Source: Chitinophaga pinensis (GTDB taxonomy: Bacteria; Bacteroidota; Bacteroidia; UBA7662). Taken from it: DNA of 64,000 nt. Within the stretch, counting starts at the first letter, position 1; each line of letters starts with the position of its first letter. Both the position numbers and the translations under genes were made by a program. The stretch spans positions 1 to 64,000 of the forward strand of contig CAMCHJ010000006.1 in NCBI GenBank assembly GCA_945874665.1. The letters are read 5' to 3'. The notes below the pieces were generated by a model that worked only from the letters and a program-made list of their open reading frames with translations, searched no databases and had not been told where the DNA came from. This document shows positions 12,446 to 30,186 of this stretch, piece after piece.

Positions 12446-12536
12446 TACAATCGCCGTTATCGGGTGGTAAAACTAAGTATCCTAAACCAAATTGCCATCG
12501 TTTTAGCCTTAAGTTTATTTGAAGAAATTGAATTAT

Positions 12537-13169
12537 TCATCTTATCGAAATCTCCGTCATACCGTACTTATAATCGGCCTCCAGCAACTTTTGCAACAAA
12601 TGCAGGTGCTCGGGCTCTTGTACAAAGTCGATTTCGTGGGTATGCACCAGCAAACAACGCAGTCCGCTGGCGTTTTGCATAAAGTCGATGTAGCCTTCAT
12701 CGATCTTTTGAAGGTATTCGGCGGTGATTTGCTGCTCAAAGTCGCGACCCCGCTTCACAATGTTGCGCAGCAGCTTATCGGTATCGGTTTTGAGGTACAC
12801 AAACAAATAAGGCTGCGGCAATTTGCTATTTACGATGCCAAACAACTCGCTAAACAGTCTAAACTCGTCGGCCTCCAAATTGCGCTGCGCAAAAATCAGC
12901 GATTTGTAAAAGCTATAATCGGCCAGCAGACCGGTCTTTTTAAGATCAAAACCCTGAAATTCATCGTGCATCTGTCGGTAGCGCTCGGCCAAAAAGGCAG
13001 TCTCTACCGAAAAAGCATAGCGCTTTGGGTCCTCATAAAAACGTGGCAAAAAAGGATTCTCCAAAAAACGCTCGTACAAGGTGGGCACTTCCCAGGCCTT
13101 CGACAGCATTTGAGTGAGGGTAGTTTTGCCAACGCCAATGTTCCCTTCTACTACTAGGTAACGGTTCAT
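12537..13169 (-). CDS. Deoxynucleoside kinase
   Basis: A 210-residue P-loop kinase of the deoxyadenosine/deoxyguanosine kinase family, which phosphorylates deoxynucleosides for salvage. Walker A is EGNIGVGKTTL at the N-terminus, followed by the substrate-site ERFLENPFLPRFYEDPKRYA and the SVETAFLAERYRQ helix. YLFVYLKTDTDKLLRNIVKRGR is a lid-like segment. The start at 13169 is fixed by family homology (MNRYLVVEGNIG) and by its ATGA overlap with the end of folK. A longer frame to 13217 is inside folK and unlikely. It is translationally coupled to folK. Confidence 0.93.
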   Translation of the reverse strand: MNRYLVVEGNIGVGKTTLTQMLSKAWEVPTLYERFLENPFLPRFYEDPKRYAFSVETAFLAERYRQMHDEFQGFDLKKTGLLADYSFYKSLIFAQRNLEADEFRLFSELFGIVNSKLPQPYLFVYLKTDTDKLLRNIVKRGRDFEQQITAEYLQKIDEGYIDFMQNASGLRCLLVHTHEIDFVQEPEHLHLLQKLLEADYKYGMTEISIR

Positions 13170-13669
13170 ACGGCCTCCTCTCCTTCCCAAATTTTTACCT
13201 CGAGGGTGTCGCTGCACTGCGCTAGTAAGGCAGCCGCACTTAGTTTCAAGACGGGATGTTGCCAGGCTGCGGCTACCTCCACCAAAGGCTGCAGCACAAA
13301 AGCCCTTTCAGCCATACGCGGATGCGGTATCACCAGCTCAGGCTGCTGCACTTGCTGTTGTCCGTAAAACAAAATATCGATGTCCATCACCCGATCGCCC
13401 CAGCGCAGTTCGCGACTGCGACCCAGGCGCGCTTCTACTTCCAAACAAAAGGCAAGCAGGTTGTGGGCAGCCCCATCAGACCCAAAAACAAGCAATTGAT
13501 TTAAATAAGACGCAACACTCACCCCGCCCCATGCCGCGGTTTCATAAATGGCTGAAACCCGCAGCGGCGCGCCCCATTCCTCCTCCAAAAAAGCACGCGC
13601 TTTTGTTAAGTTTTGGTAACGATTGCCCATATTCGTCCCTAAAAGGACACCAACTTCCTGTAAATCCAA
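13166..13669 (-). CDS. folK: 2-amino-4-hydroxy-6-hydroxymethyldihydropteridine pyrophosphokinase
   Basis: Transfers pyrophosphate from ATP to 6-hydroxymethyl-7,8-dihydropterin in folate synthesis. The 167-residue protein starts GVLLGTNMGNRYQNL and carries the HPPK signature LRWGDRVMDIDILFYG. ELVIPHPRMAERAFVLQPL follows, as in the family. Its stop codon overlaps the start of the deoxynucleoside kinase gene by 4 nt. This folK plus dNK pairing suggests an operon linking folate and dNTP supply, though only proximity supports that. Confidence 0.96.
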   Translation of the reverse strand: MDLQEVGVLLGTNMGNRYQNLTKARAFLEEEWGAPLRVSAIYETAAWGGVSVASYLNQLLVFGSDGAAHNLLAFCLEVEARLGRSRELRWGDRVMDIDILFYGQQQVQQPELVIPHPRMAERAFVLQPLVEVAAAWQHPVLKLSAAALLAQCSDTLEVKIWEGEEAV

Positions 13670-13705
13670 AATTGCACCTAATTTAGCAGCACAAACCTAA
13701 CTCTT

Positions 13706-15472
13706 ATGCGTCAGTTTTTTAAATTCACTTTTGCCTCCATGCTCGGCTTTTTGTTGGCAGGCATAGTCATCGTACTGTTGTTCACCGCTTTAATAGCAGG
13801 CATCTCCTCCTCCACCGAAAAAGAAATTACCGTAGAGGCCAACAGTATTTTGCACCTCGACTTTTCGCAGGCCATTGTTGACCGCACTTCGAACAATCCC
13901 TTCGAAAACATCGATTTTCTCACTTTCGAAACCAACAATGCACAGTCGGTTGGCGACTACCTCAAAGCCATCCGTGCGGCCGCCACTGACGACAACATCA
14001 AAGGCATCTTCCTTGATTTGTCGAGCATCGAAACCGATGGCGTGCTATGGTCTACCATCCGCAATGCCTTGTTAGACTTCAAAACCAGCGGTAAATTCAT
14101 CTATGCCTTCTCTGAAGGTTACACCCAGGGCACTTATTTAATGGCCAGCGTGGCCGACAGTGTTTTTATGGTACCCACCGGTGATATGCTTTTCAACGGA
14201 TTGGCCAGTACCCCCATGTTTTTTAAGGGAATGTTGAACAAACTCGATATAGACGTAAAGCTCATTCGCGTAGGTAAATACAAAGGCGCCGGCGAGCCCT
14301 TTATTCGGGAGAATTTGAGCGAAGAAAACCGCTATCAAATTGAAAGCTTCTTAGGAAGTTTAAACAACCAAATGTTGGCCGATCTAAGCGCCAGCACCGG
14401 CAAAAGCACCGACGAACTGCGGGCCATGGCCAACGAATTAAAAATCCGCTCCGCTGCCGATGCCGTAGCCTTAGGCATGGTACACCGTTTGGCTTTTCGC
14501 GATGAAGTGTTGAACTTGCTGGCTGCCAAAACAGAGCAAAAAGACATCGAAAAAATCAGTTTTGTTAGCTTGGAGGACTATGTGAGCAGCTTGCCCCGCG
14601 ACCTCAACTTCAAAGAAAAAAACCGCATCGCCGTGGTATATGCCATTGGCGACATTACCTCGGGGGAGGGCGACGACCAAACCATTGGCAGCGATCGCAT
14701 TGCGGCGGCTATTCGTACTGCTCGGTTAGACAAAGAAGTAAAAGCCATTGTACTTCGGGTAAATTCGCCAGGCGGCAGCGCCTTAGCCTCTGATATTATT
14801 TGGAGGGAAGTCTTACTCGCCAAAGGCGAAAAGCCGGTAGTAGTAAGCATGGGTAATTTGGCTGCTTCGGGTGGTTATTACATTGCGGCTGCTGCCGACA
14901 GCATTTTTGCGGCACCCAATACCCTCACCGGTTCGATTGGTGTATTTGGCATGATTCCCAACTTTGAAGGCTTCTTCAAAAACAAAACCGGCATCACCTT
15001 TGACCGGGTAACCACTGGTAAATATGCTGATTTGCTTAATACCAACCGCCCCATGACTGCCGACGAGGAAGCCATTGTGCAGCAAATGATCAACCGCATT
15101 TACGAAGATTTTATAAAAGTGGTAGCCGACGGTCGCGGTTTAAGCACCGACAGTGTGCATGCCATGGCCCAAGGAAGGGTGTATACCGGCGCCCAGGCCC
15201 TCGAAATTGGCTTGGTTGACAAGCTCGGCGACCTAGAAGATGCCATTGCTTGTGCAGCCCGCATGGCCAAACTCAAAGACTACCGCCTTAAAAACCTGCC
15301 CGAGCAAAAAGACCAGCTTGAAATGCTCCTAGAAAGTTTTGGAGCCGCGCGCGTGAGTGCCGTGGAACAGGAGCTAGGACCTTTGTATCAGCATTATAAA
15401 CTGGCCAAAAACTTGCTCGAAGGTGACCGCATACAAGCGCGTCTCGAATTCGACCACCAGTACATCCGCTAA
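13706..15472 (+). CDS. sppA: Signal peptide peptidase SppA, long (67K) type
   Basis: A membrane-bound Ser/Lys protease of the ClpP/crotonase-like S49 family, thought to degrade signal peptides after secretion. The 588 residues contain one N-terminal membrane segment (about 10-32) and two tandem S49 domains. By alignment with E. coli SppA, the general base is Lys193 in GKYKGAGEPF and the nucleophile is Ser388 in NLAASGGYY. The dyad is therefore intact and split between the repeats as expected. It diverges from folK with a short intergenic gap and ends in a hairpin terminator. Confidence 0.95.
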   Translation: MRQFFKFTFASMLGFLLAGIVIVLLFTALIAGISSSTEKEITVEANSILHLDFSQAIVDRTSNNPFENIDFLTFETNNAQSVGDYLKAIRAAATDDNIKGIFLDLSSIETDGVLWSTIRNALLDFKTSGKFIYAFSEGYTQGTYLMASVADSVFMVPTGDMLFNGLASTPMFFKGMLNKLDIDVKLIRVGKYKGAGEPFIRENLSEENRYQIESFLGSLNNQMLADLSASTGKSTDELRAMANELKIRSAADAVALGMVHRLAFRDEVLNLLAAKTEQKDIEKISFVSLEDYVSSLPRDLNFKEKNRIAVVYAIGDITSGEGDDQTIGSDRIAAAIRTARLDKEVKAIVLRVNSPGGSALASDIIWREVLLAKGEKPVVVSMGNLAASGGYYIAAAADSIFAAPNTLTGSIGVFGMIPNFEGFFKNKTGITFDRVTTGKYADLLNTNRPMTADEEAIVQQMINRIYEDFIKVVADGRGLSTDSVHAMAQGRVYTGAQALEIGLVDKLGDLEDAIACAARMAKLKDYRLKNLPEQKDQLEMLLESFGAARVSAVEQELGPLYQHYKLAKNLLEGDRIQARLEFDHQYIR

Positions 15473-19665: not shown

Positions 19666-20968
19666 GTTTTATTTTAAAGGCTACGAGGGCGTTTGTGCTG
19701 GCGCTTCGCAGTGCAAAAGTACTTCTTCTTAGGCCAATCACCCAATAAATGCGGTTTTGGTCAGCTAATACCAGTGCCGTGGCCTTTTGGTAGGTGCTCC
19801 ACTTAGCCTCGTTAAACAAATCGCTAAGTTTTTTGCTGCCGTGCATACCTAACGGAGAAAGGCGGTCGCCGGCCTTATAACTACGTATTTGGAGGGGGAA
19901 TTTTAATTCATCGGCATCAAATTGCTCCCAAGAAGCATCAAAACCGGTGCCTTGCGCTACTACTAAATGGGCAGCGGGTAGCTTATAGGTGCCTGGACCG
20001 TCAATTTGCAACAAAAAATCCTGAACAGCGGCAGGTTGGTGCCAGTCGAAGCCTGTGATGGTGCGGGTAACGAGCCACTTGCCAGCGTCTAATTGCTTGC
20101 CTACAGACAAATGTCGCAGGGCCAAAAGGGCTTCGGTGAGTTGTTGACCAAGCTGGTAAGGTCGTGCCAGTTCGCTAATCAGCAAGTCGGCATACGGCAA
20201 ATCGGCCAAAGGGCTTAAATGCCATTGGTGCCAATGTGGCTTCATTTGATGCACCACTTTTGGAGCCCAAAGCTCGGTTTGTGCCTGCAGTAATTGCTGG
20301 TAGCCTTGCAATTGTTGGGCTTGTCGCGCTACCAAACCTTCCCATTGATTAAAGCGCGCGTCAAGAAGCGGCTTCACATTTAGCCGCAAATAATTGCGCT
20401 CATAGGCATCCTGCTGGTTGCTCAGGTCTTCTACCCACTGCAAGCCAGCTTCTTGAGCATAGGTCGCTATTTCTGAAACTGTAAAGTCAAGCAGTGGCCG
20501 CAGCCGAAGTCCGTTCTGTACCTGCATTCCTTGCACAGCCTTGCTGCCTCTGCCCCTCAAGAGTGCCATGAGCACGGTTTCGGCTTGGTCTTGCTGGTGG
20601 TGCCCCAACATTACGCCAGCAAACTGCTGCACCTCACAAAGCTCGGCAAACCAGCTGTAGCGCACCTCTCTGGCTTTTTCTTGTAGATTTTGTTGGAAGT
20701 CGGCGGGATCACAGCGTTTTTCGAAGTATTCCACCTGTAAATCGGCTGCCATTTTTTTTACAAAGACGGCGTCTTGCTGGGAGGCGGTGCCTCTTAAACC
20801 ATAATTTACATGGGCTATGGCAAAATTTTGCTGGCTGGTTTTGAGGAGATGTGCAAGTACAACGCTATCTCTACCACCGCTAACTGCGGCCAGCACCTTT
20901 TGCTCCGGTAACAGCCTCAGCTGCTCCCGAAGCACCTTTTGGAAGCGCAAAACGAGCTCATTTGTCAT
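19658..20968 (-). CDS. tilS: tRNA(Ile)-lysidine synthetase
   Basis: Converts C34 of the CAU-anticodon tRNA-Ile to lysidine, an essential decoding step. The 436-residue protein has the N-type ATP pyrophosphatase motif VLAAVSGGRDSVVLAHLL. GHHQQDQAETVLMALLRGRG and the TilS-specific C-terminal domain (SPLGMHGSKKLSDLFNEAK, then IYWVIGLR) are also present. It sits between a small retropepsin-like gene (11-nt overlap) and the pseudouridine synthase (8-nt overlap). Two adjacent RNA-modifying genes suggest a translation-linked operon. Confidence 0.96.
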   Translation of the reverse strand: MTNELVLRFQKVLREQLRLLPEQKVLAAVSGGRDSVVLAHLLKTSQQNFAIAHVNYGLRGTASQQDAVFVKKMAADLQVEYFEKRCDPADFQQNLQEKAREVRYSWFAELCEVQQFAGVMLGHHQQDQAETVLMALLRGRGSKAVQGMQVQNGLRLRPLLDFTVSEIATYAQEAGLQWVEDLSNQQDAYERNYLRLNVKPLLDARFNQWEGLVARQAQQLQGYQQLLQAQTELWAPKVVHQMKPHWHQWHLSPLADLPYADLLISELARPYQLGQQLTEALLALRHLSVGKQLDAGKWLVTRTITGFDWHQPAAVQDFLLQIDGPGTYKLPAAHLVVAQGTGFDASWEQFDADELKFPLQIRSYKAGDRLSPLGMHGSKKLSDLFNEAKWSTYQKATALVLADQNRIYWVIGLRRSTFALRSASTNALVAFKIKHD

Positions 20969-21389
20969 CTTTCAAAATCAAGATCATTTTGTTATAATCT
21001 ATGCGGGCGTGGTATTTGCGCAATACATCACCGCCCAAAATACCATCTAACTTGCCATGACCCAATTGGGCATAGGTGGCTTGGATGTGCTGGAGGTCGA
21101 GGGCGGCGGCCGTGACTTTTTGGATGCGACAACGGCCAATTTTAAAGGCTTCTAGCGCAAAGGTATGACTTTGCATTTCGGTGGTGCCCAAGCCAGCGGA
21201 GGTTTGTGCGGATGCCTCTAAGGCTAAATCCGGAAACCACTCCTGCAGCTGCCCTACATCGAAAACAGTTTTGCTGGCACCTGTATCAAGCACCAAGTTC
21301 AGCTTACGGTCGTGCCAGCGCGCTTTGAGCAACAAATGGCAGCCGTCGGCTTCCAGTTCGACGAGTTGTAGGGGGATTTTATACTTCAT
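20958..21389 (-). CDS. Retropepsin-like (clan AA) aspartic protease domain protein
   Basis: A 143-residue single-domain protein with the aspartic protease triad LVLDTGASKTVFD and the downstream GILGGDVLRKYHARIDY segment that forms the second half of the fold in retropepsin-like proteins. These act as homodimers. No signal peptide or membrane anchor is visible, so it is probably cytoplasmic. Similar small proteins are common in Bacteroidota but their substrates are unknown. It heads the tilS operon with an 11-nt overlap. Its ATG lies only 9 nt after a 13-bp hairpin terminator. Confidence 0.8.
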   Translation of the reverse strand: MKYKIPLQLVELEADGCHLLLKARWHDRKLNLVLDTGASKTVFDVGQLQEWFPDLALEASAQTSAGLGTTEMQSHTFALEAFKIGRCRIQKVTAAALDLQHIQATYAQLGHGKLDGILGGDVLRKYHARIDYNKMILILKDDK

Positions 21390-21398
21390 CTATAAATA

Positions 21399-21431
21399 AA
21401 GAAAGACGATGCGGTGAACATCGTCTTTCTT
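21399..21431 (-). terminator. Hairpin terminator after mdh
   Basis: AAGAAAGACGATG (21399-21411) pairs perfectly over 13 bp with 21419-21431, with a 7-nt loop. On the minus strand it lies just after the mdh stop and is followed by TTTATTT. It also stands immediately before the ATG of the next minus-strand gene, so it may double as an attenuator. Confidence 0.85.
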
Positions 21432-21448
21432 AAAAAAGGTTGGTTTAC

Positions 21449-22384
21449 TTAAAACATATTCATGTTGTCCATCACGTCCATCACTTCTTTTACAGCAGCG
21501 GCGGATTCCTTGAGCAATTGCTTTTCAGCATCGTTCAATTGAAGTTCGATGATTTCTTCGATGCCATTTTTACCAAGTTTAACAGGCACACCGAGATAAA
21601 TATCTTTCAAGCCATATTCGCCATTCAACAAGGCGCAAACTGGGAAAATACGTTTTTGATCGCGTACAATGGCTTCTACCATTTGTGCAGCAGCAGCACC
21701 TGGTGCATACCAAGCGGAGGTACCTAACAAATTTACAATCTCTCCACCGCCCTTTTTGGTGCGGTCGATGATGGCGTTTAATTTCTCTTCAGAAATGAGC
21801 TCTGTTACGGGGATGCCGCCAACAGTTGTGTAACGTGGCAGGGGCACCATGGTATCACCGTGACCACCCATCAAAACTGCCTGGATGTCTTTTGGTGAAC
21901 AATCCAAAGCCTCCGCTAAAAAGGCACGATAACGAGCAGTGTCAAGTACACCGGCCATACCAAATACCTTGCGAGAATCTTTTTTAGCAGCCAAATAAGC
22001 ACAATAGGTCATTACATCTAGTGGATTCGATACCACAATGATGATCGCATCTGGCGAGTACTTAAGGATGTTCTCGGTCACTGATTTTACAATACCTGCG
22101 TTGGTCGAAATCAAGTCATCGCGACTCATGCCCGGCTTACGCGGCAAACCGCTTGTAATCACAACCACCTCACTGCCAGCAGTTTTAGTGTAGTCATTGG
22201 TTGAACCCTTGACGCGGGTATCGTACATATTTACGGGGGCCGTCTGCCAAATATCCAAGGCTTTGCCTTCGGCAAAATTCTCCTTAATATCCACCAGGAT
22301 AACCTCGTTTGCAAGCTCTTTGTGAGCAATTACATCTGCACAGGTAGCTCCCACATTACCTGCACCAACAACTGTGATTTTCAT
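21449..22384 (-). CDS. mdh: Malate dehydrogenase, LDH-like type
   Basis: NAD-dependent oxidation of malate to oxaloacetate in the TCA cycle. The 311-residue protein belongs to the LDH-like MDH type. It has the Rossmann motif VVGAGNVGATCADVI and the substrate-binding Arg pair in GLPRKPGMSRDDLI. VVSNPLDVMTYCA and the catalytic His in LMGGHGDTMVPLPRY are present. The Arg before KPGMSR at the specificity loop indicates malate rather than lactate. It is a single-gene unit with a -7 box (TAATTTTG, 22414-22407) upstream and a hairpin terminator downstream. Confidence 0.96.
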   Translation of the reverse strand: MKITVVGAGNVGATCADVIAHKELANEVILVDIKENFAEGKALDIWQTAPVNMYDTRVKGSTNDYTKTAGSEVVVITSGLPRKPGMSRDDLISTNAGIVKSVTENILKYSPDAIIIVVSNPLDVMTYCAYLAAKKDSRKVFGMAGVLDTARYRAFLAEALDCSPKDIQAVLMGGHGDTMVPLPRYTTVGGIPVTELISEEKLNAIIDRTKKGGGEIVNLLGTSAWYAPGAAAAQMVEAIVRDQKRIFPVCALLNGEYGLKDIYLGVPVKLGKNGIEEIIELQLNDAEKQLLKESAAAVKEVMDVMDNMNMF

Positions 22385-22406
22385 ATTCGAATGTTTTTTT
22401 GACGGT

Positions 22407-22414
22407 CAAAATTA
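22407..22414 (-). promoter_or_regulatory. Probable -7 promoter element of mdh
   Basis: TAATTTTG on the minus strand matches TAnnTTTG and lies 22 nt before the mdh ATG. No good -33 TTTG was found at the usual distance, so this is a single-element call. Confidence 0.4.
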
Positions 22415-22499
22415 CGGATTTCAAACCGCTTTTACTTATCTTGTGGGTTGATTTAAAAGCAAAAAACTTCAACCTACATCTAATCACAGCCTATAATAT

Positions 22500-24047
22500 A
22501 TGAAAAAGTTAATTCTCGCCTTTAGCCTACTCTTCGCAAGCAGTACCTCAATTGCCCAAGAGGCCAATGCGCCTTGTGGTACAGGGCCTGCTCCAAAAGC
22601 TAGTTTAGACTACATCAGCATGCTGCATGAAAATGGCATTTTCGACCAAATTGCAGTTGAAAATATTCAAAACACCATTTTCATACCTTTGAAAATTCAC
22701 ATTGTGGGCACCAATACAGGGCAAGGCTATTACAGTTTGGCCAATTTGATGACCAACATTTGCGAAATGAACCAAAAGTTCAATGCCTTAGGTATACAAT
22801 TCTTTCTGCGAGGCGAAATCAATTACATCAACAACACCAGTATTTACAATTTACCGTCTTTTGCTGCTGCTGGCGCCGCCAACACACAATACAACGTGAG
22901 TCGAGTAGTGAACGTGTATTTCGCCAATTTAGCTGCGGTTGGTGCTTGCGGATTTGCAAACTACCCAAATTCTGGTGAGCCTAGCACAACCATCCGACAA
23001 GGTGCTATTTGGTTGGCACCAGGTTGCTCAGGACCAGGGAATAGTACTTTTGCGCACGAAATGGGTCATTTCTTAAGCTTACCCCACCCATTCGACGAAA
23101 CTTCGGATGCCCCAGCGGCAGCTACCAGTGAACGCGTAACACGCAATACAAATGAAACGGCACCTCGCTTTTCAGCCAATTGCACCAGTGCTGGCGACCG
23201 TTTTTGTGATACACCAGCCGATTTTCGTCCCGATCGTTGGAACTGCCCTGGTGTTAATAGCACGGTAGTTGATTTAAATGGCGATCTCTTTCAGCCAGAT
23301 GGCACCTTGTATATGAGTTATGCTAACGATGCCTGTCAAAATAAATTTTCTCCTCAGCAAGTGGCTTCCATGCGTTCTACCATTTCAGTAACGCAGACAC
23401 AAACAGGCCAAAACATAAACGGTCCGCGTATGTATTTGCTCGTTCCACCCATGCCTGCCTATGATACCATTACTGGCAATACGAGCGTGGTTGAACCTGC
23501 TAACAACAGTACTGGCCATCCTGCCAATTGGGTTTATTTCAAGTGGAGACAAGTAGCTGGAGCCAATATGTATTTATTACGCATTCGTAGGAACTTTACA
23601 ACCATCGATGAATTGTTGGTAAACTCAGCAGATACTGCCTATTTATACACCAAAAATACCATGACTCCTGGCGTTCAATACCGCATTTCTGTGATGCCGT
23701 TGAATCACAAAGTTACTTGTCGTACCTACAGCGCCGAAACCAACTTTACTGTTACAACAGGATTTGGTGTAAATGTTGCAGACGTAGCGGCAAACACTTT
23801 TAAGGTGTATCCTAGCCTACTTCAAAGCTACGCCCCTATCAAGATTCAAACTACAGAAGAAAGTGCTGAGCGTTTGGCTTATCAACTAACAGATTTGCAA
23901 GGCCGCTTAGTAATGAGTGGCACTGCCGAGGCTTTAGGTGGCGGTGCCTTTGAGATACCTGTGCAAGTTGCAGCCAATGGCACTTACTTCTTGAAATTGC
24001 AGCAAGGGCAAAAAACACACAACCAAAAAATCGTGATCACCCGTTAA
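22500..24047 (+). CDS. Secreted M43-type zinc metalloprotease with T9SS sorting domain (paralog 1 of 4)
   Basis: A 515-residue predicted extracellular metallopeptidase. Signal peptide about 1-20; the mature N-terminus carries CGTG (Cys26). The zinc site is HEMGHFLSLPH (His186, Glu187, His190, His196) and YMSY supplies the likely Met-turn, as in the pappalysin-like M43 family. ERVTRN, SANC and FCDTPADF follow the zinc site. A fibronectin-like domain precedes a C-terminal type A sorting domain (about 430-515), which in this phylum directs export by the type IX system and surface attachment or release. It leads a three-gene run with 12-18 nt gaps. Substrate unknown. Confidence 0.88.
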   Translation: MKKLILAFSLLFASSTSIAQEANAPCGTGPAPKASLDYISMLHENGIFDQIAVENIQNTIFIPLKIHIVGTNTGQGYYSLANLMTNICEMNQKFNALGIQFFLRGEINYINNTSIYNLPSFAAAGAANTQYNVSRVVNVYFANLAAVGACGFANYPNSGEPSTTIRQGAIWLAPGCSGPGNSTFAHEMGHFLSLPHPFDETSDAPAAATSERVTRNTNETAPRFSANCTSAGDRFCDTPADFRPDRWNCPGVNSTVVDLNGDLFQPDGTLYMSYANDACQNKFSPQQVASMRSTISVTQTQTGQNINGPRMYLLVPPMPAYDTITGNTSVVEPANNSTGHPANWVYFKWRQVAGANMYLLRIRRNFTTIDELLVNSADTAYLYTKNTMTPGVQYRISVMPLNHKVTCRTYSAETNFTVTTGFGVNVADVAANTFKVYPSLLQSYAPIKIQTTEESAERLAYQLTDLQGRLVMSGTAEALGGGAFEIPVQVAANGTYFLKLQQGQKTHNQKIVITR

Positions 24048-24059
24048 GGCCGTTGATCA

Positions 24060-25568
24060 ATGAAAACAGCATTTCTTAGTAGCTGCTTTGCTGCCTTGTG
24101 CATCCTTTGCGCGCCAGCGCAAGCCCAGCTCCTTGCTGATTGTGGCACAGGCGATACGCCTCCACTTGTAAGCGAGTGGTTGCAAAAGCTCGACCACGCC
24201 AAATGGAGTGCTGACAACACCTCCAACGATACTACCTGGTTAGCTGCTCAAATATTTTTAGTGCATGCCCCCACAGGAGCTCCGGCCATCACGCTTGATA
24301 GCTTAAAACGCACCTTTGCAGTCCTAAACCGCAGGTTTGCACCGGCAAAAATCCAATTTTACCAAGCAGGAATGCCGCGTTACATTGTGAATCAGATTTG
24401 GTCGAATCCGCCTGACAAGCAAATTGCGACCTTGATGATCGACTCTTTTAATCTTACCCGTGTGGTGAATATCTATTTCACCAATTTGGGCAGCCAAGGC
24501 TTGTGTGGGTATGCTTATTATCCAAATAGTGGTCCTGGCGGACCTATTTCACGTGGTGCTGCCATGATGAGCTATTCGTGTTCTGGTCCAGAATCGGGCA
24601 CTTTGGCACACGAGTTAGGTCATTTCTTCTCTTTACCGCATCCATTTCAAGGTACTTCTGGCAATCCAGCAGGCCCAACGGCAGAACGAGTTACACGAAA
24701 TGCGAATGAAACTGCACCTCGCTTATCGGCTAATTGTCAAACTACGGGTGATTTCTTTTGTGACACCAAAGCTGATCCATACAGTGCGCGCTGGCAATGC
24801 CTTTCCAACCCTGCCACCTTTGACATCAATGGTGATCGCTTTTTTGCAGATTCCAGCCTCATCATGTCGTATGCAGCCAATACCTGCCGGGATATATTCA
24901 GCGAGCAACAAATGACCGCAATGCAAGCTACTGTAGCCAGTGGCAGTGCCCCTCGGGGTTATTTATTGTTACGCCAACGGCCTATTACAAATGAAATCAG
25001 CAGTGAAGCGGCACCAATTACACCTGCCATTGGAGCCACTGATGTGCAACCAAATTTTGCTCATTTTAATTGGACGGCTGTACCTGGCGCCACCTTTTAC
25101 CATGTGCGTATCAAAAGAGCCATCCTTCCTACTCTGGTAAAAGACACGATTGTTGCTGGTACGTTTTTGTCGGTGTACGACAATAAAATGAATATCAATA
25201 CCGATTTTCAGTGGTCTGTAACTCCGCACAATGAAAACGACTTTTTTATCGTAAAACCCATTGTTTGGCACAATTTCAGGACCGGTTCGCGGACTGCAAC
25301 CAGTGTATTCGAAAATCAAAACAACGATTTTATTATCTACCCCAATCCGGCACAAGCAGGTTCAACATTAACAATTCTGCGTGATGTAGAGGTGGCCTTA
25401 ACCGTATTTATTTACGATTTACAGGGCAAACAAGTTTTTAGGCAAGTCATTACAGCGGCAGAAAAAATGGTGACACTACCTGCTAACCTTACCGCTGGCA
25501 CTTATTTGATACGCCTTCAAGATAGTCAAGGCCGAAACAAAACACAGAAAATACTGTTAATGCCTTAA
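24060..25568 (+). CDS. Secreted M43-type zinc metalloprotease with T9SS sorting domain (paralog 2 of 4)
   Basis: A 502-residue paralog of its neighbours. The signal peptide (about 1-22) is unusually Cys-rich. Zinc site HELGHFFSLPH (His184, Glu185, His188, His194), ERVTRN, SANC, FCDTKAD in place of FCDTPAD, and IMSY Met-turn. The fibronectin-like segment and a sorting domain with canonical IYPNPAQAG follow. Compared with the other three it lacks the Cys near position 87 (Phe instead) while keeping the CGTG Cys28. It begins 12 nt after paralog 1, so the two are almost surely co-transcribed. Fold and active site look intact. Confidence 0.87.
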   Translation: MKTAFLSSCFAALCILCAPAQAQLLADCGTGDTPPLVSEWLQKLDHAKWSADNTSNDTTWLAAQIFLVHAPTGAPAITLDSLKRTFAVLNRRFAPAKIQFYQAGMPRYIVNQIWSNPPDKQIATLMIDSFNLTRVVNIYFTNLGSQGLCGYAYYPNSGPGGPISRGAAMMSYSCSGPESGTLAHELGHFFSLPHPFQGTSGNPAGPTAERVTRNANETAPRLSANCQTTGDFFCDTKADPYSARWQCLSNPATFDINGDRFFADSSLIMSYAANTCRDIFSEQQMTAMQATVASGSAPRGYLLLRQRPITNEISSEAAPITPAIGATDVQPNFAHFNWTAVPGATFYHVRIKRAILPTLVKDTIVAGTFLSVYDNKMNINTDFQWSVTPHNENDFFIVKPIVWHNFRTGSRTATSVFENQNNDFIIYPNPAQAGSTLTILRDVEVALTVFIYDLQGKQVFRQVITAAEKMVTLPANLTAGTYLIRLQDSQGRNKTQKILLMP

Positions 25569-25586
25569 GAATCAAATGCTACACAT

Positions 25587-27077
25587 ATGAAACAAATTAT
25601 ATTATTAGGGCTGGCCATTATGTTAAGTCCTTTTTTTGTGCAAGGGCAATCATTTTCTGAGCCTTGTGGCACTGGTTTGCCACCCAAAGCAACAATGGAT
25701 TACATCCGGAGTTTAGATTATGGTGTTTCACAAACCGAAGACACGGTCATTTACAACATACCCGTCACCATCCATGTAATCCGAAGCAGCAACGGCGGTG
25801 GGGGGTTCAACGAAACGCAGGCCTACCTCACCATCTGCGATCTTAACAACCGCATGGCCAGTGCAGGCATGTTTTTTTACGTGCCTGAGCCTGTGAACTA
25901 CATCAACAATGATGACTATTACGCTGCAACGGATTACAGTCCTTTGTTTACTATGATTGACCAAAACAATGTGCCAAGGACCGTGAACATCTATTACACC
26001 AACTTGGCTACTTTAGGCTTATGTGGATTTGCTTTTTACCCAAATTCAGGCCCTGGCGGCTTTCAAAATGATGGTGCCGTAGTCATGAGTTTTGCTTGTT
26101 CACAACCCACTGGCACAACGCTTACACACGAAATTGGTCACTTTTTTAACCTGCCGCATACTTTTGACTTCACCTCAAGCGATCCAATAAGTACATCTGC
26201 CGAGCGTGTTACAAGAAATTTCACCGAAGTTTTTCCACGGCTCAATGCCAATTGTAATATGGAAGGAGATGGCTTTTGCGACACTCCGGCCGACTTCATC
26301 GATACACGCTGGAGCTGTCCGAATGGCAGGGTTCAACTAGATCTAAACGGTGACCGATTTAGACCTGATTCGAGCTATTACATGAGCTATTCTAATGATC
26401 TATGCATGAGCAGGTTTTCAGCTCAACAAATTACGGCCATGCGCAATACCCTCATCAATGTAAACGCATCGCGTGGCTATTTGCGAATCAACCCCATGCC
26501 TAATTATCCTGTTATCAGCACTGCGCTAACCCAGTTACAGCCGCTAGCTGGCGATACCGTAGTGCCCAACCAAGCAGTATTTAGCTGGCAGCGCATACCA
26601 GGTGTTACGCTGTACCAAATCAAAATTTACCTATTCAACTTTGCGGTTGTAGACACCTTTACCACCGATACTTTTTACGTGAATCGAACGCGTGACATAA
26701 GGCCTAACCGCGACCACAGTTGGGATGTGCGGGCGATCACAGGCGCGCAATTGTGTACGCCTTTTGGGCCGCGAATCAATTTCAGAAGTACCAACTTAGC
26801 CTTAAGCAATAGTCAATTGATCGCCCATAACGCCATCGAAGTTTATCCTAACCAGCTGAGAGGTGGCGAATCGATTTATTTAGACAAACTGCTGCTGGAG
26901 GCACCCTTGATGCTGCGGTTGCTTGATTTGCAAGGACGTATGCTGTTAGCATCGCAGCAGGAAGTGACCGCCGAAAAGCAACTATTTACAATGCCTTCAA
27001 TACCTGCTGGTCTTTATCTCTTGCAAATAGAGCAAGCCGGACGTCAAAGTTTTCACAAAATCATGATTACGAACTAG
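25587..27077 (+). CDS. Secreted M43-type zinc metalloprotease with T9SS sorting domain (paralog 3 of 4)
   Basis: A 496-residue paralog with signal peptide about 1-20, CGTG at Cys27 and zinc site HEIGHFFNLPH (His181, Glu182, His185, His191). ERVTRN, NANC, FCDTPADFID and the YMSYSND Met-turn region are present. After the protease domain come a fibronectin-like domain and a type A sorting domain (VYPNQLRGG, ending with IPAGLYLLQIEQAG). It starts 18 nt after paralog 2 and ends the first three-gene run; a 162-nt gap follows. Divergence among the four copies is high outside the active site, so the duplication is not recent. Confidence 0.87.
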   Translation: MKQIILLGLAIMLSPFFVQGQSFSEPCGTGLPPKATMDYIRSLDYGVSQTEDTVIYNIPVTIHVIRSSNGGGGFNETQAYLTICDLNNRMASAGMFFYVPEPVNYINNDDYYAATDYSPLFTMIDQNNVPRTVNIYYTNLATLGLCGFAFYPNSGPGGFQNDGAVVMSFACSQPTGTTLTHEIGHFFNLPHTFDFTSSDPISTSAERVTRNFTEVFPRLNANCNMEGDGFCDTPADFIDTRWSCPNGRVQLDLNGDRFRPDSSYYMSYSNDLCMSRFSAQQITAMRNTLINVNASRGYLRINPMPNYPVISTALTQLQPLAGDTVVPNQAVFSWQRIPGVTLYQIKIYLFNFAVVDTFTTDTFYVNRTRDIRPNRDHSWDVRAITGAQLCTPFGPRINFRSTNLALSNSQLIAHNAIEVYPNQLRGGESIYLDKLLLEAPLMLRLLDLQGRMLLASQQEVTAEKQLFTMPSIPAGLYLLQIEQAGRQSFHKIMITN

Positions 27078-27239
27078 TGAGTACTTTTGCTGCATTACAG
27101 TAAATTTTGCTTAAGAAAAAATGTAATCCATTAACAATTGTTGATTCATTCCTTGAGCAGATAACAAGAGTACATCTAGTAATGACAACAAATCAACATT
27201 AACTACAAAAAACTGGCAACAATATATTAATTTGGTCTC

Positions 27240-28760
27240 ATGAAGAAGATTTACAACTACCTACTTGTACTCATTTTGTTGTGCATTCAAGCATTTACCG
27301 CACAAGCGCAATTTGCTCCTGAGGCCCTTTGTGGCACTGCTGAACCTTCTGATGCGCATTATAAATACATTGAAAGTCTGAATCAACAGTATAATGCTTT
27401 AGATATAGAAGCAGACTCTAATGGCACCATCTATTTGCCTATTAAATTTCACGTTGTAACCGATATCAACGGCAGCAGATACGACCAAAACACCTTGCTT
27501 ACCGTTTTTTGCGAACTCAATCAGAAATTTCAGGGCAGTGGCATTCAGTTTTACATGCGCGGTGATGTAAACGTAATTAATAACTCACTCTACTACAGAC
27601 ATACCTCCAATGCCGTAGGATCAGCCCTGATGAATGAGCACAACGTAATTCGGTCAATAAACACCTATTTTGTAGATCTGTCAGCCATCGGCTTGTGTGG
27701 TTATGCCTATTTCCCTGGCTCAGGACCCGGAGGCCCTTTAAGAGAAGGTGGATTAATGATGAGTATTGGTTGCTCGCAAGTTGGAAATACCACGCTAGCC
27801 CATGAGATGGGACATTATTTGGCGCTTCCTCATACCTTTGATGGTTCAAGTACAGATCCAATTAGTCCGTTTGCAGAACGTGTAACCCGCAATCCCAACG
27901 AAGTGGCACCGCGTTTTTCGGCAAACTGCAATACCTTTGGTGATAGATATTGTGATACACCAGCCGATATTTACGGATTTCGCTGGAATTGTAACGGCAT
28001 GGCACTCAACGATACCGATTTAAACGGAGATACTTTTTTGCCTGATGCTGGCTATTTTATGTCCTATTCGTCTGACTTCTGCATGAATAAGTTTTCGCAG
28101 CAGCAAATGAACACCATGCGCCAAACTGTGCGCTCAAGCAGCACTACTCCAGCGCCAAGGAACTATCTAACGGTGTTTCCAATGCCAGCTTGGGATACAG
28201 TTACCAGCAATGTAACGCTGTTAGAGCCCCTCGCCAGTAGCACTCCATCCCCGTCTAACTTTATATTTTTTAGATGGAGCAAAGCACCTGGTGCCACGCA
28301 TTATTTTGTCCGTATCCGCAGAAATAATTTACCTGTAACGGAGTTTACTACGACCGATACAACGCGCTTATTTACCATCAATTTGTTACAGCCGGGCCTC
28401 ACGTATACCTATACGATCAGGCCATATAACCACGGCTGGACCTGCGTAGGGCCAAGTCAAACAGGTACTTTTACCACAACCCAAGGCTATGGCGTTTCGG
28501 TATTCGATCCAAAAAGCCAAGAGGTGGTGATTTATCCAAGCTTGCTAGAAGCTGGTCAATTGTTAAATATTCGTAGCGGTGAGGCACAATTACAAAGTTT
28601 CAGTTTGGTTGACATACAAGGCCGCACCGTGATGCAAGCACCTCTAGAGTCTGGTAGCATTGTTCATCAGATACAGATGCCTGTTTTACCTGCTGGCACC
28701 TACCATGTTAAGCTGCAAAGCAACAGAGGCCCGTTGTTTGAGCGCATCGTAATCCAGTAA
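27240..28760 (+). CDS. Secreted M43-type zinc metalloprotease with T9SS sorting domain (paralog 4 of 4)
   Basis: A 506-residue paralog with signal peptide about 1-23, CGTA (not CGTG) at Cys31 and zinc site HEMGHYLALPH (His188, Glu189, His192, His198). ERVTRN, SANC, YCDTPADIYG and FMSY follow. It has a fibronectin-like domain and a sorting domain with IYPSLLEAG, the same Ser-Leu-Leu variant seen in paralog 1 rather than YPNP. That similarity, together with the fibronectin-like domain, groups it with paralog 1. It has its own 162-nt upstream region with a TTAATTTG just before the ATG, so it may be regulated separately. Confidence 0.87.
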   Translation: MKKIYNYLLVLILLCIQAFTAQAQFAPEALCGTAEPSDAHYKYIESLNQQYNALDIEADSNGTIYLPIKFHVVTDINGSRYDQNTLLTVFCELNQKFQGSGIQFYMRGDVNVINNSLYYRHTSNAVGSALMNEHNVIRSINTYFVDLSAIGLCGYAYFPGSGPGGPLREGGLMMSIGCSQVGNTTLAHEMGHYLALPHTFDGSSTDPISPFAERVTRNPNEVAPRFSANCNTFGDRYCDTPADIYGFRWNCNGMALNDTDLNGDTFLPDAGYFMSYSSDFCMNKFSQQQMNTMRQTVRSSSTTPAPRNYLTVFPMPAWDTVTSNVTLLEPLASSTPSPSNFIFFRWSKAPGATHYFVRIRRNNLPVTEFTTTDTTRLFTINLLQPGLTYTYTIRPYNHGWTCVGPSQTGTFTTTQGYGVSVFDPKSQEVVIYPSLLEAGQLLNIRSGEAQLQSFSLVDIQGRTVMQAPLESGSIVHQIQMPVLPAGTYHVKLQSNRGPLFERIVIQ

Positions 28761-28761
28761 T

Positions 28762-29685
28762 TTGGTGAATAGCCGCTTGGCTCAGTCCCTTGGGCTTCAA
28801 CTCCCGAGTAGGATTGATGAGCTTGCTTTCAACTATCTCGGCAGTGAGATACGGCTGTCTGTGAAACGAGATGACCTCATCCATCCACTCGTAAATGGCA
28901 ATAAATGGCGGAAACTAGCTGCATTTGTTGAAGACATTGGAGCTACCAATGCGCTAGTGAGCTTAGGTGGCGCCTATTCGAACCACTTATTGGCAGTAGC
29001 CAGTTTGGCCAAAGCGCTACGTTTACCCTCCTATGGCTACTTACGAGGTGATGAAAATAGAGCAGAAAACACCTATGAACGCTGGCTGCAGCAATTGGGG
29101 ATGCAGCTCATTAAACTCCCGCGAGCTGAGTATAATGACAAATCATTGCTTTACCCATTTCTCAAATCACAACACCCCAGTGCTTTGCTTATTCCGGAAG
29201 GAGGCCATCCACTGCCTACCACCAACCGCTTAGCCAATCTGCTCGACGAACAACCGCTACATTACGAGCATCTGCTGGTGAGTTGCGGCACCGGTGCCAC
29301 AATTTTGGCGCTGGCAGCAGGACTAGCCGCTCGCAAGGAGCAACTACAATTGCATGGGCTAAGCGTGATCAATCAAGTTAACTTCATTGCAGAGCTCCAA
29401 AGGCAACTGCAGTCTATTTACCCGCACAGCCAAGTGTCACCACACCCGGAAAAACTGAGGCTTGGCAAGCTCAGTCCCGCCATGTTAGCCATCAGCAAGG
29501 CCTGCTTTGAACAAACTGGACTAGCACCCGACCCCATTTATGATGCGGCGTTGTTGCTTTATGTACATGAAGCCTTACAATCAGGAAAAATAAAGCCAGA
29601 AGACCGCTGTTTGTGGGTACACAGCGGCGGTTTGCCGGGTTGGTCAGGTTATCCCCTAGAATGCCAGCAGCTGTTCGGCTTGTAA
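28762..29685 (+). CDS. PLP-dependent 1-aminocyclopropane-1-carboxylate deaminase/D-cysteine desulfhydrase family
   Basis: A 307-residue fold-type II pyridoxal-phosphate enzyme. VKRDDLIHPLVNGNKWRKL contains the probable PLP-binding Lys, and SLGGAYSNHLLAVASLAK and SCGTGATILALAAGLAA are phosphate-binding segments. Relatives deaminate ACC or release sulfide from D-cysteine; in non-plant-associated bacteria the desulfhydrase role is more usual, but the sequence alone does not decide. The start is TTG at 28762 or GTG at 28765, 1-4 nt after the protease stop. It converges with the FMN reductase gene with a 30-nt overlap. Confidence 0.82.
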   Translation: MVNSRLAQSLGLQLPSRIDELAFNYLGSEIRLSVKRDDLIHPLVNGNKWRKLAAFVEDIGATNALVSLGGAYSNHLLAVASLAKALRLPSYGYLRGDENRAENTYERWLQQLGMQLIKLPRAEYNDKSLLYPFLKSQHPSALLIPEGGHPLPTTNRLANLLDEQPLHYEHLLVSCGTGATILALAAGLAARKEQLQLHGLSVINQVNFIAELQRQLQSIYPHSQVSPHPEKLRLGKLSPAMLAISKACFEQTGLAPDPIYDAALLLYVHEALQSGKIKPEDRCLWVHSGGLPGWSGYPLECQQLFGL

Positions 29686-30186
29686 ACGCATAATCATCGC
29701 ATATTCAGCATTGGCAACGCGGCCATCTTGCATGTTTTTACCGATCTGTATCAACCGAGGTCGCAACGCCAAGGTATGCGTGCCCACATAATTGAGTACG
29801 TCAGCAAAATGACCCATGGCCAATGCGCTGCCCTGCGTGCCGTCGGAAATGCCCAAAAGTGCCGCTTTTTTGTGCTTGAAGCTGTCTGGGAACTTGCAAG
29901 CATCAACCCATATTTTCAAAATACCTGGAAACGAGCCGTTGTACTCAGGAATTATAAAGATGAACTTATCGGTAGCGCTCACCAGCTGTTGCATGCGCTC
30001 CCAAGCAGCATTCGGCTGCTTTACTTTTTTGTAGAGGGTAGTCTCGAGAATGTCAACCGGCATGTCCTGCAAATCTAGGATATTGGCTTGAACGCCGATT
30101 TCAGCTAAAATGGCTTGGTAATGAGCGGCAACTTGACTGCTCACCGACTGGTCGCGACTCGTGCTCGCAACAATGGTATAATTCAT
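29656..30186 (-). CDS. NAD(P)H-dependent FMN reductase family protein
   Basis: A 176-residue flavodoxin-like reductase. FMN-binding loops are visible as ASTSRDQSVSSQVA near the N-terminus and IPEYNGSFPGILKIWVD in the middle. GISDGTQGSALAMGHFADVL follows. Such enzymes reduce flavins, quinones or azo dyes, and some protect against oxidative stress. It starts 3 nt after clpX and so is the last gene of the tig-clpP-clpX unit. Why a flavin reductase travels with this protease operon is unclear. Confidence 0.83.
   Translation of the reverse strand: MNYTIVASTSRDQSVSSQVAAHYQAILAEIGVQANILDLQDMPVDILETTLYKKVKQPNAAWERMQQLVSATDKFIFIIPEYNGSFPGILKIWVDACKFPDSFKHKKAALLGISDGTQGSALAMGHFADVLNYVGTHTLALRPRLIQIGKNMQDGRVANAEYAMIMRLQAEQLLAF

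Follow-up and report, generated by a model that had tools for sequence, protein, structure and literature searches.

We describe a tandem array of four M43-type metalloprotease genes in the 64,000-nucleotide stretch of Chitinophaga pinensis DNA analyzed here (assembly GCA_945874665.1, contig CAMCHJ010000006.1, positions 1 to 64,000), which we call the window. Judging from the phylogeny, the array is old and its copies have since been kept apart, and it stands divergent from the malate dehydrogenase gene mdh in all 13 genomes of its family that show both and in members of four other families. As to its role, we favor, with a probability of roughly 0.6, several secreted zymogens with partly different cleavage preferences that digest extracellular protein.

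Copies 1 to 4, which represent lineages A, B, C and D and encode proteins of 515, 502, 496 and 506 aa, lie head to tail on the plus strand at 22500..24047, 24060..25568, 25587..27077 and 27240..28760, separated by gaps of 12, 18 and 162 nt, with no premature stop in any of the four open reading frames (ORFs). All share one architecture, namely a leader, a Cys-Gly-Thr (CGT) motif, an M43 domain, an Fn3-like region and a type A tail of the type IX secretion system (T9SS). The Pfam model Peptidase_M43 matches copies 1 to 4 at 51, 43.7, 43.5 and 30.3 bits, and the NCBIfam model of the T9SS type A sorting domain, TIGR04183, at 30.5, 43.1, 29.3 and 27.6 bits, all above the cut-off of 23 that applies to each. 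Copies 2, 3 and 4 are 36%, 35% and 44% identical to copy 1. Chance ORFs were ruled out by the profile matches, the fold and the orthologues.

A first-pass annotation, made from the DNA letters without database searches, had described four full-length, strongly diverged paralogs with T9SS sorting domains in all of them and a separate upstream region for copy 4. This description holds, the sorting domains by TIGR04183, yet the Pfam tail model PF18962 passes its cut-off in copies 1 and 2 only. The 162-nt gap before copy 4 contains a single exact match, by consensus only, to the Bacteroidetes -7 element TAnnTTTG (TACTTTTG, 27082..27089, plus strand; PMC6847099). The array proteins would also carry a signal peptide, as a hydrophobic leader was judged by eye from each translation and a structural model of copy 1 has an N-terminal helix.

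Family history and linkage to mdh

Array members were found in all 17 covered genomes of the family in a search of 119 relatives. Two trees were built, a quick one of 98 rows with long branches flagged, which took 98 of 120 hits (11 were dropped as coming from records repeating genomes in the set, nine as scoring below 130 bits and two as short pieces), and a careful one of 56 hand-chosen rows; some loci from named records may repeat genomes already included. Copies 1, 3 and 4 form separate orthologue clades in both trees, each spanning all four genera of the family, with support in the 56-row tree, G005 included, of 100/98, 96/86 and 98/98, respectively. The order 1-3-4 is unchanged wherever contigs span the array. 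Copy 2, by comparison, was found among the fetched arrays only in those of the source genome (G000) and G001. It joins lineage C firmly (100/99), as an old sister lineage of copy 3, and groups with a solitary G005 gene (L051) at only 92/75 in the 56-row tree.

Simple Nei-Gojobori estimates against G001 give ratios of nonsynonymous to synonymous change (dN/dS) of 0.055 for copy 1 (dS 1.8) and 0.063 for copy 4 (dS 2.0), next to 0.021 for mdh, 0.025 for clpX, 0.047 for clpP and 0.134 for tilS. The catalytic part of copy 2 is 93% identical between the two genomes, the highest value among the four copies, and its tail 56%. Together with the stem branch of copy 2, long in both trees, this conservation is what would be expected of change followed by constraint. 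The earlier claim that the copies had been long kept is thus supported by family-wide clades for copies 1, 3 and 4 and by low dN/dS for copies 1 and 4.

Relatives of lineage A also occur elsewhere in the family genomes, as longer proteins of 732-960 aa (L049:3030-5909, L055:380-3244, L057:992-3874, L045:1968-4166 and L053:1129-3327); those of L049 and L045 have Dockerin_1 near the C terminus and match no T9SS tail model at E 0.001. Lineages C and D of the array in G005 are separated by a 596-aa ORF on the opposite strand (L050:10169-11959), to which no Pfam family matches at E 0.001.

The gene mdh (21449..22384, minus strand; TIGR01763, 442 bits, cut-off 352) is adjacent to and divergent from the array in 13 of the 13 family genomes that show both; G004, G006, G010 and G014 fall outside this count through contig ends or the absence of an mdh hit. 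The same arrangement extends beyond the family, to 3/3 genomes of f2, the one f3 genome seen (1/1), G085 of f25 and 5/5 genomes with a match in f63, with tandem pairs beside mdh in G085, G216 and G330; G182 of f25, which has weaker matches, lacks the adjacency. Seven named Saprospiraceae records fall in the array clades, and mdh is next to the first gene in five of them (L085, L087, L088, L103 and L104), lies 2.3 kb off with two ORFs between in L090, and is not present within 8.3 kb upstream in L102; nor is there an mdh at locus L101, a Saprospiraceae record outside the array clades. Across the class, 46 genomes outside f1-f3 have a family match, 14 of them strong (E up to 2.6e-89). Six of these 14 adjoin mdh, the strong matches away from it being those of f13 (0/4), G096, G356, G324 and a tandem pair in G045, and no adjacency was seen in the 31 genomes with a weaker match and an mdh hit; these class-level adjacencies were read from coordinates with three candidates scored per genome, so misses are possible. 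The first-pass annotation had reported no substrate or inhibitor gene adjacent to the array, which agrees with the neighbors scanned, and it had overlooked the conserved divergent mdh.

Other genes around mdh deserve mention in their own right. A small aspartyl-protease-like gene follows mdh in the window (20958-21389), and its homologues follow mdh in L182, L183 and L184. On the far side of the array, a gene for a pyridoxal phosphate (PLP)-dependent enzyme (28762-29685) begins 1 nt past copy 4 by a mechanically assigned TTG start; homologues occupy the same place in G001, G002 and G005, and the loci of the remaining two genera showed no such gene at that position. At six mdh loci without the array, a T9SS-type protein stands on the divergent side in five (L179, L180, L182, L183 and L184); that of L183 is the second ORF on this side, at a distance of 1.1 kb. 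Among 79 further mdh loci, an ORF of 150 aa or more lies upstream in 74 and is divergent in 38; a scan of up to 400 C-terminal residues of these 38 gave CHU_C in 15, Por_Secre_tail in three and SprB in seven, counts that may overlap. The downstream neighbors of mdh, taken as a control, had Por_Secre_tail in 10/72, and the 36 co-directional upstream neighbors showed neither tail among the 25 families listed. With genes called by a crude ORF rule in related genomes, the impression that T9SS cargo often stands divergent from mdh even without an M43 array is a lead, no test.

Active site, pro-segment and fold

The motif HExxHxxxxxH, with three zinc-binding histidines and the catalytic glutamate, is present in 4/4 copies, as is the Met-turn MxY in the form MSY. 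The zinc sites, all on the plus strand, read HEMGHFLSLPH in copy 1 (23055..23087), HELGHFFSLPH in copy 2 (24609..24641), HEIGHFFNLPH in copy 3 (26127..26159) and HEMGHYLALPH in copy 4 (27801..27833). The first-pass annotation had called these sites intact, and this stands for the ligands and the glutamate; the turn residue departs from the usual form. The metzincin motif is given as H-E-x-x-H-x-x-G/N-x-x-H/D, with the Gly or Asn called essential for the turn (PMC11674741), and of the four copies only copy 3, with Asn, conforms to HExxHxxG/NxxH, copies 1, 2 and 4 having Ser, Ser and Ala. The rule is not strictly defining, however, because mirolysin, an active enzyme, has Asp231 at this position (PMC6949598).

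Among the 67 array-family rows of the order, the motif is readable in 65 (f1-f3), where the turn residue is Ser in 24, Ala in 20, Asn in 20, Gln in one and Gly in none; in contrast, 54 other M43 domains have Gly (28), Asn (24) or Asp (2), although this control consists of the best Pfam hits passing a motif filter and is thus biased toward canonical sequences. By lineage, the residue is Ser (10) or Asn (5) in A, Ser in B (2/2), Asn (9), Ser (5) or Ala (1) in C, and Ala in D (16/16). Gly does occur in remoter members, such as L169, L172, L086 and L089.

A second position of interest is the S1' aspartate, which in mirolysin is Asp289, tied to Arg/Lys specificity and located, by the family profile alignment, five residues past the Met-turn Met284 (PMC6949598). 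The aspartate is kept in copy 1 (23328..23330), copy 3 (26397..26399) and copy 4 (28074..28076), whereas copy 2 has Asn at this position (24879..24881, within the Met-turn MSYAAN at 24864-24881), as does its G001 orthologue; all coordinates are on the plus strand. In readable rows, Asp is found in 14/14 of lineage A (one row ends before the position and is uncounted), 15/15 of C and 16/16 of D, and Asn in 2/2 of B. The specialization of the copies that the annotation had proposed is supported in part by such residues fixed per copy, namely the turn Ala of copy 4 and the S1' Asn of copy 2. Outside the family, the Saprospiraceae and f63 genes form two clades in the 56-row tree, one mostly adjoining mdh and the other mostly in second place. 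In the former, 10/11 rows lack Asp at Met+5, the exception being the first gene of L104, though a loop one residue shorter in several rows makes this alignment uncertain; in the latter, Asp is found in 7/9 rows and Asn in 2/9.

Further variants were noted at or near these sites. In four relatives (L091, L092, L093 and L094, the last three named as Flavobacteriaceae), the S1' residue is Lys (MSYSRK), and a preference for acidic residues might follow. An odd case is a 1685-aa M43-like protein divergent from mdh in G045 (L177:6158-11215), whose catalytic domain appears to be split. Matches to the family profile fall at aa 12-231, a segment holding the zinc motif, and at aa 1389-1684, with 14 SprB repeat stretches between or nearby, as if adhesin-like repeats had been inserted within the metzincin domain. 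In a Saprospiraceae pair (L104:9905-12172 and 12256-14493), MSY lies about 320 residues past the zinc motif (193 to 515 and 185 to 506), whereas the window copies have a spacing of about 86; this points to an insertion at a comparable position.

Near the N terminus, each copy has the CGT motif that we take for a putative cysteine switch, at 22575..22583 (aa 26), 24141..24149 (aa 28), 25665..25673 (aa 27) and 27330..27338 (aa 31) of the plus strand for copies 1 to 4. N-terminal CGT or CGS is present in 61/67 array-family rows; the six exceptions comprise two rows truncated at the 5' end, three whose ORF start is short, and L044, which lacks the motif. In promirolysin, Cys23 blocks the zinc (PMC6949598), and the family profile places its own CG opposite the one close to the beginning of the crystallized mirolysin zymogen, with E 2.9e-4 for the stretch by itself. 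All four copies are probably latent zymogens, because CGT aligns with the cysteine switch of promirolysin.

The fold agrees with this family placement. The copy-1 model, with a mean predicted local distance difference test (pLDDT) score of 80.3 and a predicted template modeling (pTM) score of 0.71, matches promirolysin over 248 residues (model residues 25-322) at Z 19.9, a root mean square deviation of 3.3 and 23% identity, proulilysin at Z 19.3 and PAPP-A at Z 19.8. Its top 18 rows, at Z 17.9 to 19.9, are mirolysin, ulilysin, PAPP-A and PAPP-A2, and the next rows, from other families, reach Z 10.4 at most, mostly over the Fn3-like region and tail. A sequence search of the PDB with copy 4 as a single query gave fibronectin-type chains as best matches and no pappalysin among the 60 best listed; with alignments as the query, pappalysins were recovered.

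Probable role and rival readings

The source genome (2.29 Mb, 35 contigs, 96% complete) appears equipped to export these proteins, with 66 T9SS-tail hits, of which 63 exceed the cut-off. Profile searches placed SprA_N in a 2408-aa frame and a single C25 peptidase in a 1274-aa frame, the latter a candidate for PorU, the known C-terminal domain (CTD) signal peptidase. In the mechanism we propose, each protease would be made as a latent zymogen, comprising the leader, a short CGT pro-segment, the metzincin domain, the Fn3-like region and the type A tail, would be exported through the T9SS and would become active extracellularly once the pro-segment has been removed. Copies 1, 3 and 4, with the kept aspartate, would cleave before Arg or Lys, and copy 2, with Asn at S1', would prefer other residues. 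The array probably arose from a protease already beside mdh that was duplicated long ago, and its likely purpose is the digestion of extracellular protein for growth. Here we infer latency, catalysis, cleavage preference and the nutritional role, with digestion of extracellular protein as the most economical reading of that role.

Several points weigh against this interpretation. The Ser or Ala at the turn of three of the four copies makes catalysis not certain. The model of copy 1 falls below pLDDT 50 around the switch cysteine and is also partly poor in the loop from the zinc site to the Met-turn, and that of copy 4 (first 320 residues) is poor, with a mean of 68.9; because of this low confidence, latency rests on the sequence and the match to promirolysin. 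Moreover, promirolysin Arg21, two residues before the cysteine, fills the pocket (PMC6949598), and the alignment gives no counterpart of this Arg in the four copies. The dS values against G001 are saturated for copies 2 and 3 and near saturation for copies 1 and 4. Finally, nothing among the scanned neighbors points to protein uptake.

The main rival is surface-protein processing, with the array proteases cutting at basic sites to mature each other or further surface proteins of the T9SS. The S1' Asp of copies 1, 3 and 4 and the zymogen-like design would suit such a set, and the 66 proteins with T9SS-tail hits are possible clients; however, no client gene was seen adjacent to the array and the PorU role already has its own candidate in the single C25 hit; we regard this rival as unlikely. 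Less likely again is that the copies have little or no catalytic activity and serve to bind peptide or a surface, an idea prompted by Ser or Ala at a position called essential (PMC11674741) and countered by the zinc ligands, catalytic Glu and Met-turn retained in all four copies as well as by the Asp at the turn of active mirolysin (PMC6949598). Secreted proteases could also serve attack on other organisms, such as predation, algal or bacterial lysis, or defense, rather than feeding on dissolved protein. Nothing speaks directly for this, and no lysis or immunity gene was found among the eight neighboring proteins scanned, for which a defense-specific library was not used; we hold it to be improbable. 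Least credible of all is a recent tandem duplication with one working protease and redundant, drifting copies. The head-to-tail layout and the gaps of 12 and 18 nt among the first three copies invite it, but the separate clades in the same order family-wide, the stop-free ORFs, the low identity to copy 1 and the low dN/dS of copies 1 and 4 contradict it. Such a duplication was ruled out by both trees, and the phylogeny did not give the outcome that the first-pass annotation had set against itself, a recent duplication leaving one active copy.

Whether mdh bears on the digestion of extracellular protein is a separate matter, the linkage itself being observed and a link to the role of the array being conjectural. 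A bolder proposal is that mdh and the array form one conserved divergent unit that couples the regulation of extracellular protein digestion to that of the malate step in central metabolism, that the proteases are a pappalysin subfamily working with Ser or Ala at the turn, and that copy 2 and the Saprospiraceae clade mostly adjoining mdh add a second cleavage preference to a set otherwise specific for basic residues; we consider it possible but, on balance, doubtful. A fair null, and probably the correct account, is that the linkage reflects gene-order inertia without bearing on the role. Other neighbors of mdh persist likewise, including the aspartyl-protease-like gene and tilS, and strong family members in f13, G096, G356 and G324 stand away from it. 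On the other side, in f63 and the named Saprospiraceae the protease stays beside mdh, while of 22 other window genes (569-39466) only tilS lies near mdh, at about 2 kb, in three loci (L085, L087 and L169).

Promoter elements favor the null as well. The divergent intergenic region between mdh and copy 1 spans 115 bp (22385..22499) and holds an exact consensus match to the -7 element on the mdh side (TAATTTTG, 22414 to 22407, minus strand); in the source genome, no exact match was found on the array side. Across 25 such regions, TAnnTTTG is directed toward mdh in 22 and toward the array in 16; shuffled sequences average 2.5 and 3.0, respectively, and none of 1000 shuffles reaches either count, although some region boundaries were placed manually within the longest ORF and the genomes, being related, are not independent. 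In most genomes mdh and the array thus have each their own element, so a single shared promoter is not needed. A scan of 21300-29800 for E. coli-type promoters and terminators gave 13 against a shuffle mean of 14.0 and 7 against 9.5, no excess in either, with models ill-suited to this phylum.

Relation to known systems

Tandem M43 genes already occur elsewhere in the class. Runs of several M43 genes close together on one contig are present in other Bacteroidia (for example G049:C91, G021:C8, G053:C19 and G027:C52), differing from the array in that the proteins are mostly larger and the turn residue in the copies read is Gly or Asn; in G049, G021 and G027 the contig carrying mdh is a different one, and no mdh hit was obtained in G053. 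We found no published account of such an array in listings of the open-licence literature, which is weak evidence of novelty. Its value lies in the combination of copy-by-copy orthology and mdh linkage over deep divergence, a rare anchor for asking what M43 arrays do. Moreover, Ser and Ala at the turn put a rule on metzincin active sites to the test, and the Asp-to-Asn change of copy 2 leads to a direct prediction of altered cleavage preference.

Among characterized proteases, ulilysin (LysargiNase) of Methanosarcina acetivorans shares with the array the pappalysin catalytic domain and the CG of the pro-segment, its turn residue being Asn in the aligned chain as against Ser, Ser, Asn and Ala; as an archaeal protein, it is made without a T9SS. 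Cytophagalysin CPL1 of Cytophaga sp. L43-1 is, like the array proteins, a Bacteroidota pappalysin with a pro-segment Cys, and it ends in a domain similar to those for T9SS export, although export by this route is unproved (PMC11674741); the array proteins differ from CPL1 in having about 500 aa, a single Fn3-like region and the tail. A close parallel is mirolysin of Tannerella forsythia, a unicellular pappalysin and KLIKK protease, with which the array shares the metzincin fold of catalytic domain and pro-segment, the pro-segment CG and, in copies 1, 3 and 4, the S1' Asp at Met+5. Mirolysin is secreted as a zymogen (PMC6949598), as we propose for the array proteins. Unlike mirolysin with its Asp231, the array has Ser, Ser, Asn and Ala at the turn, an S1' Asn in copy 2 and four tandem genes beside mdh. 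We file its products as T9SS cargo of the pappalysin family, variant in the turn residue and in the pocket of copy 2.

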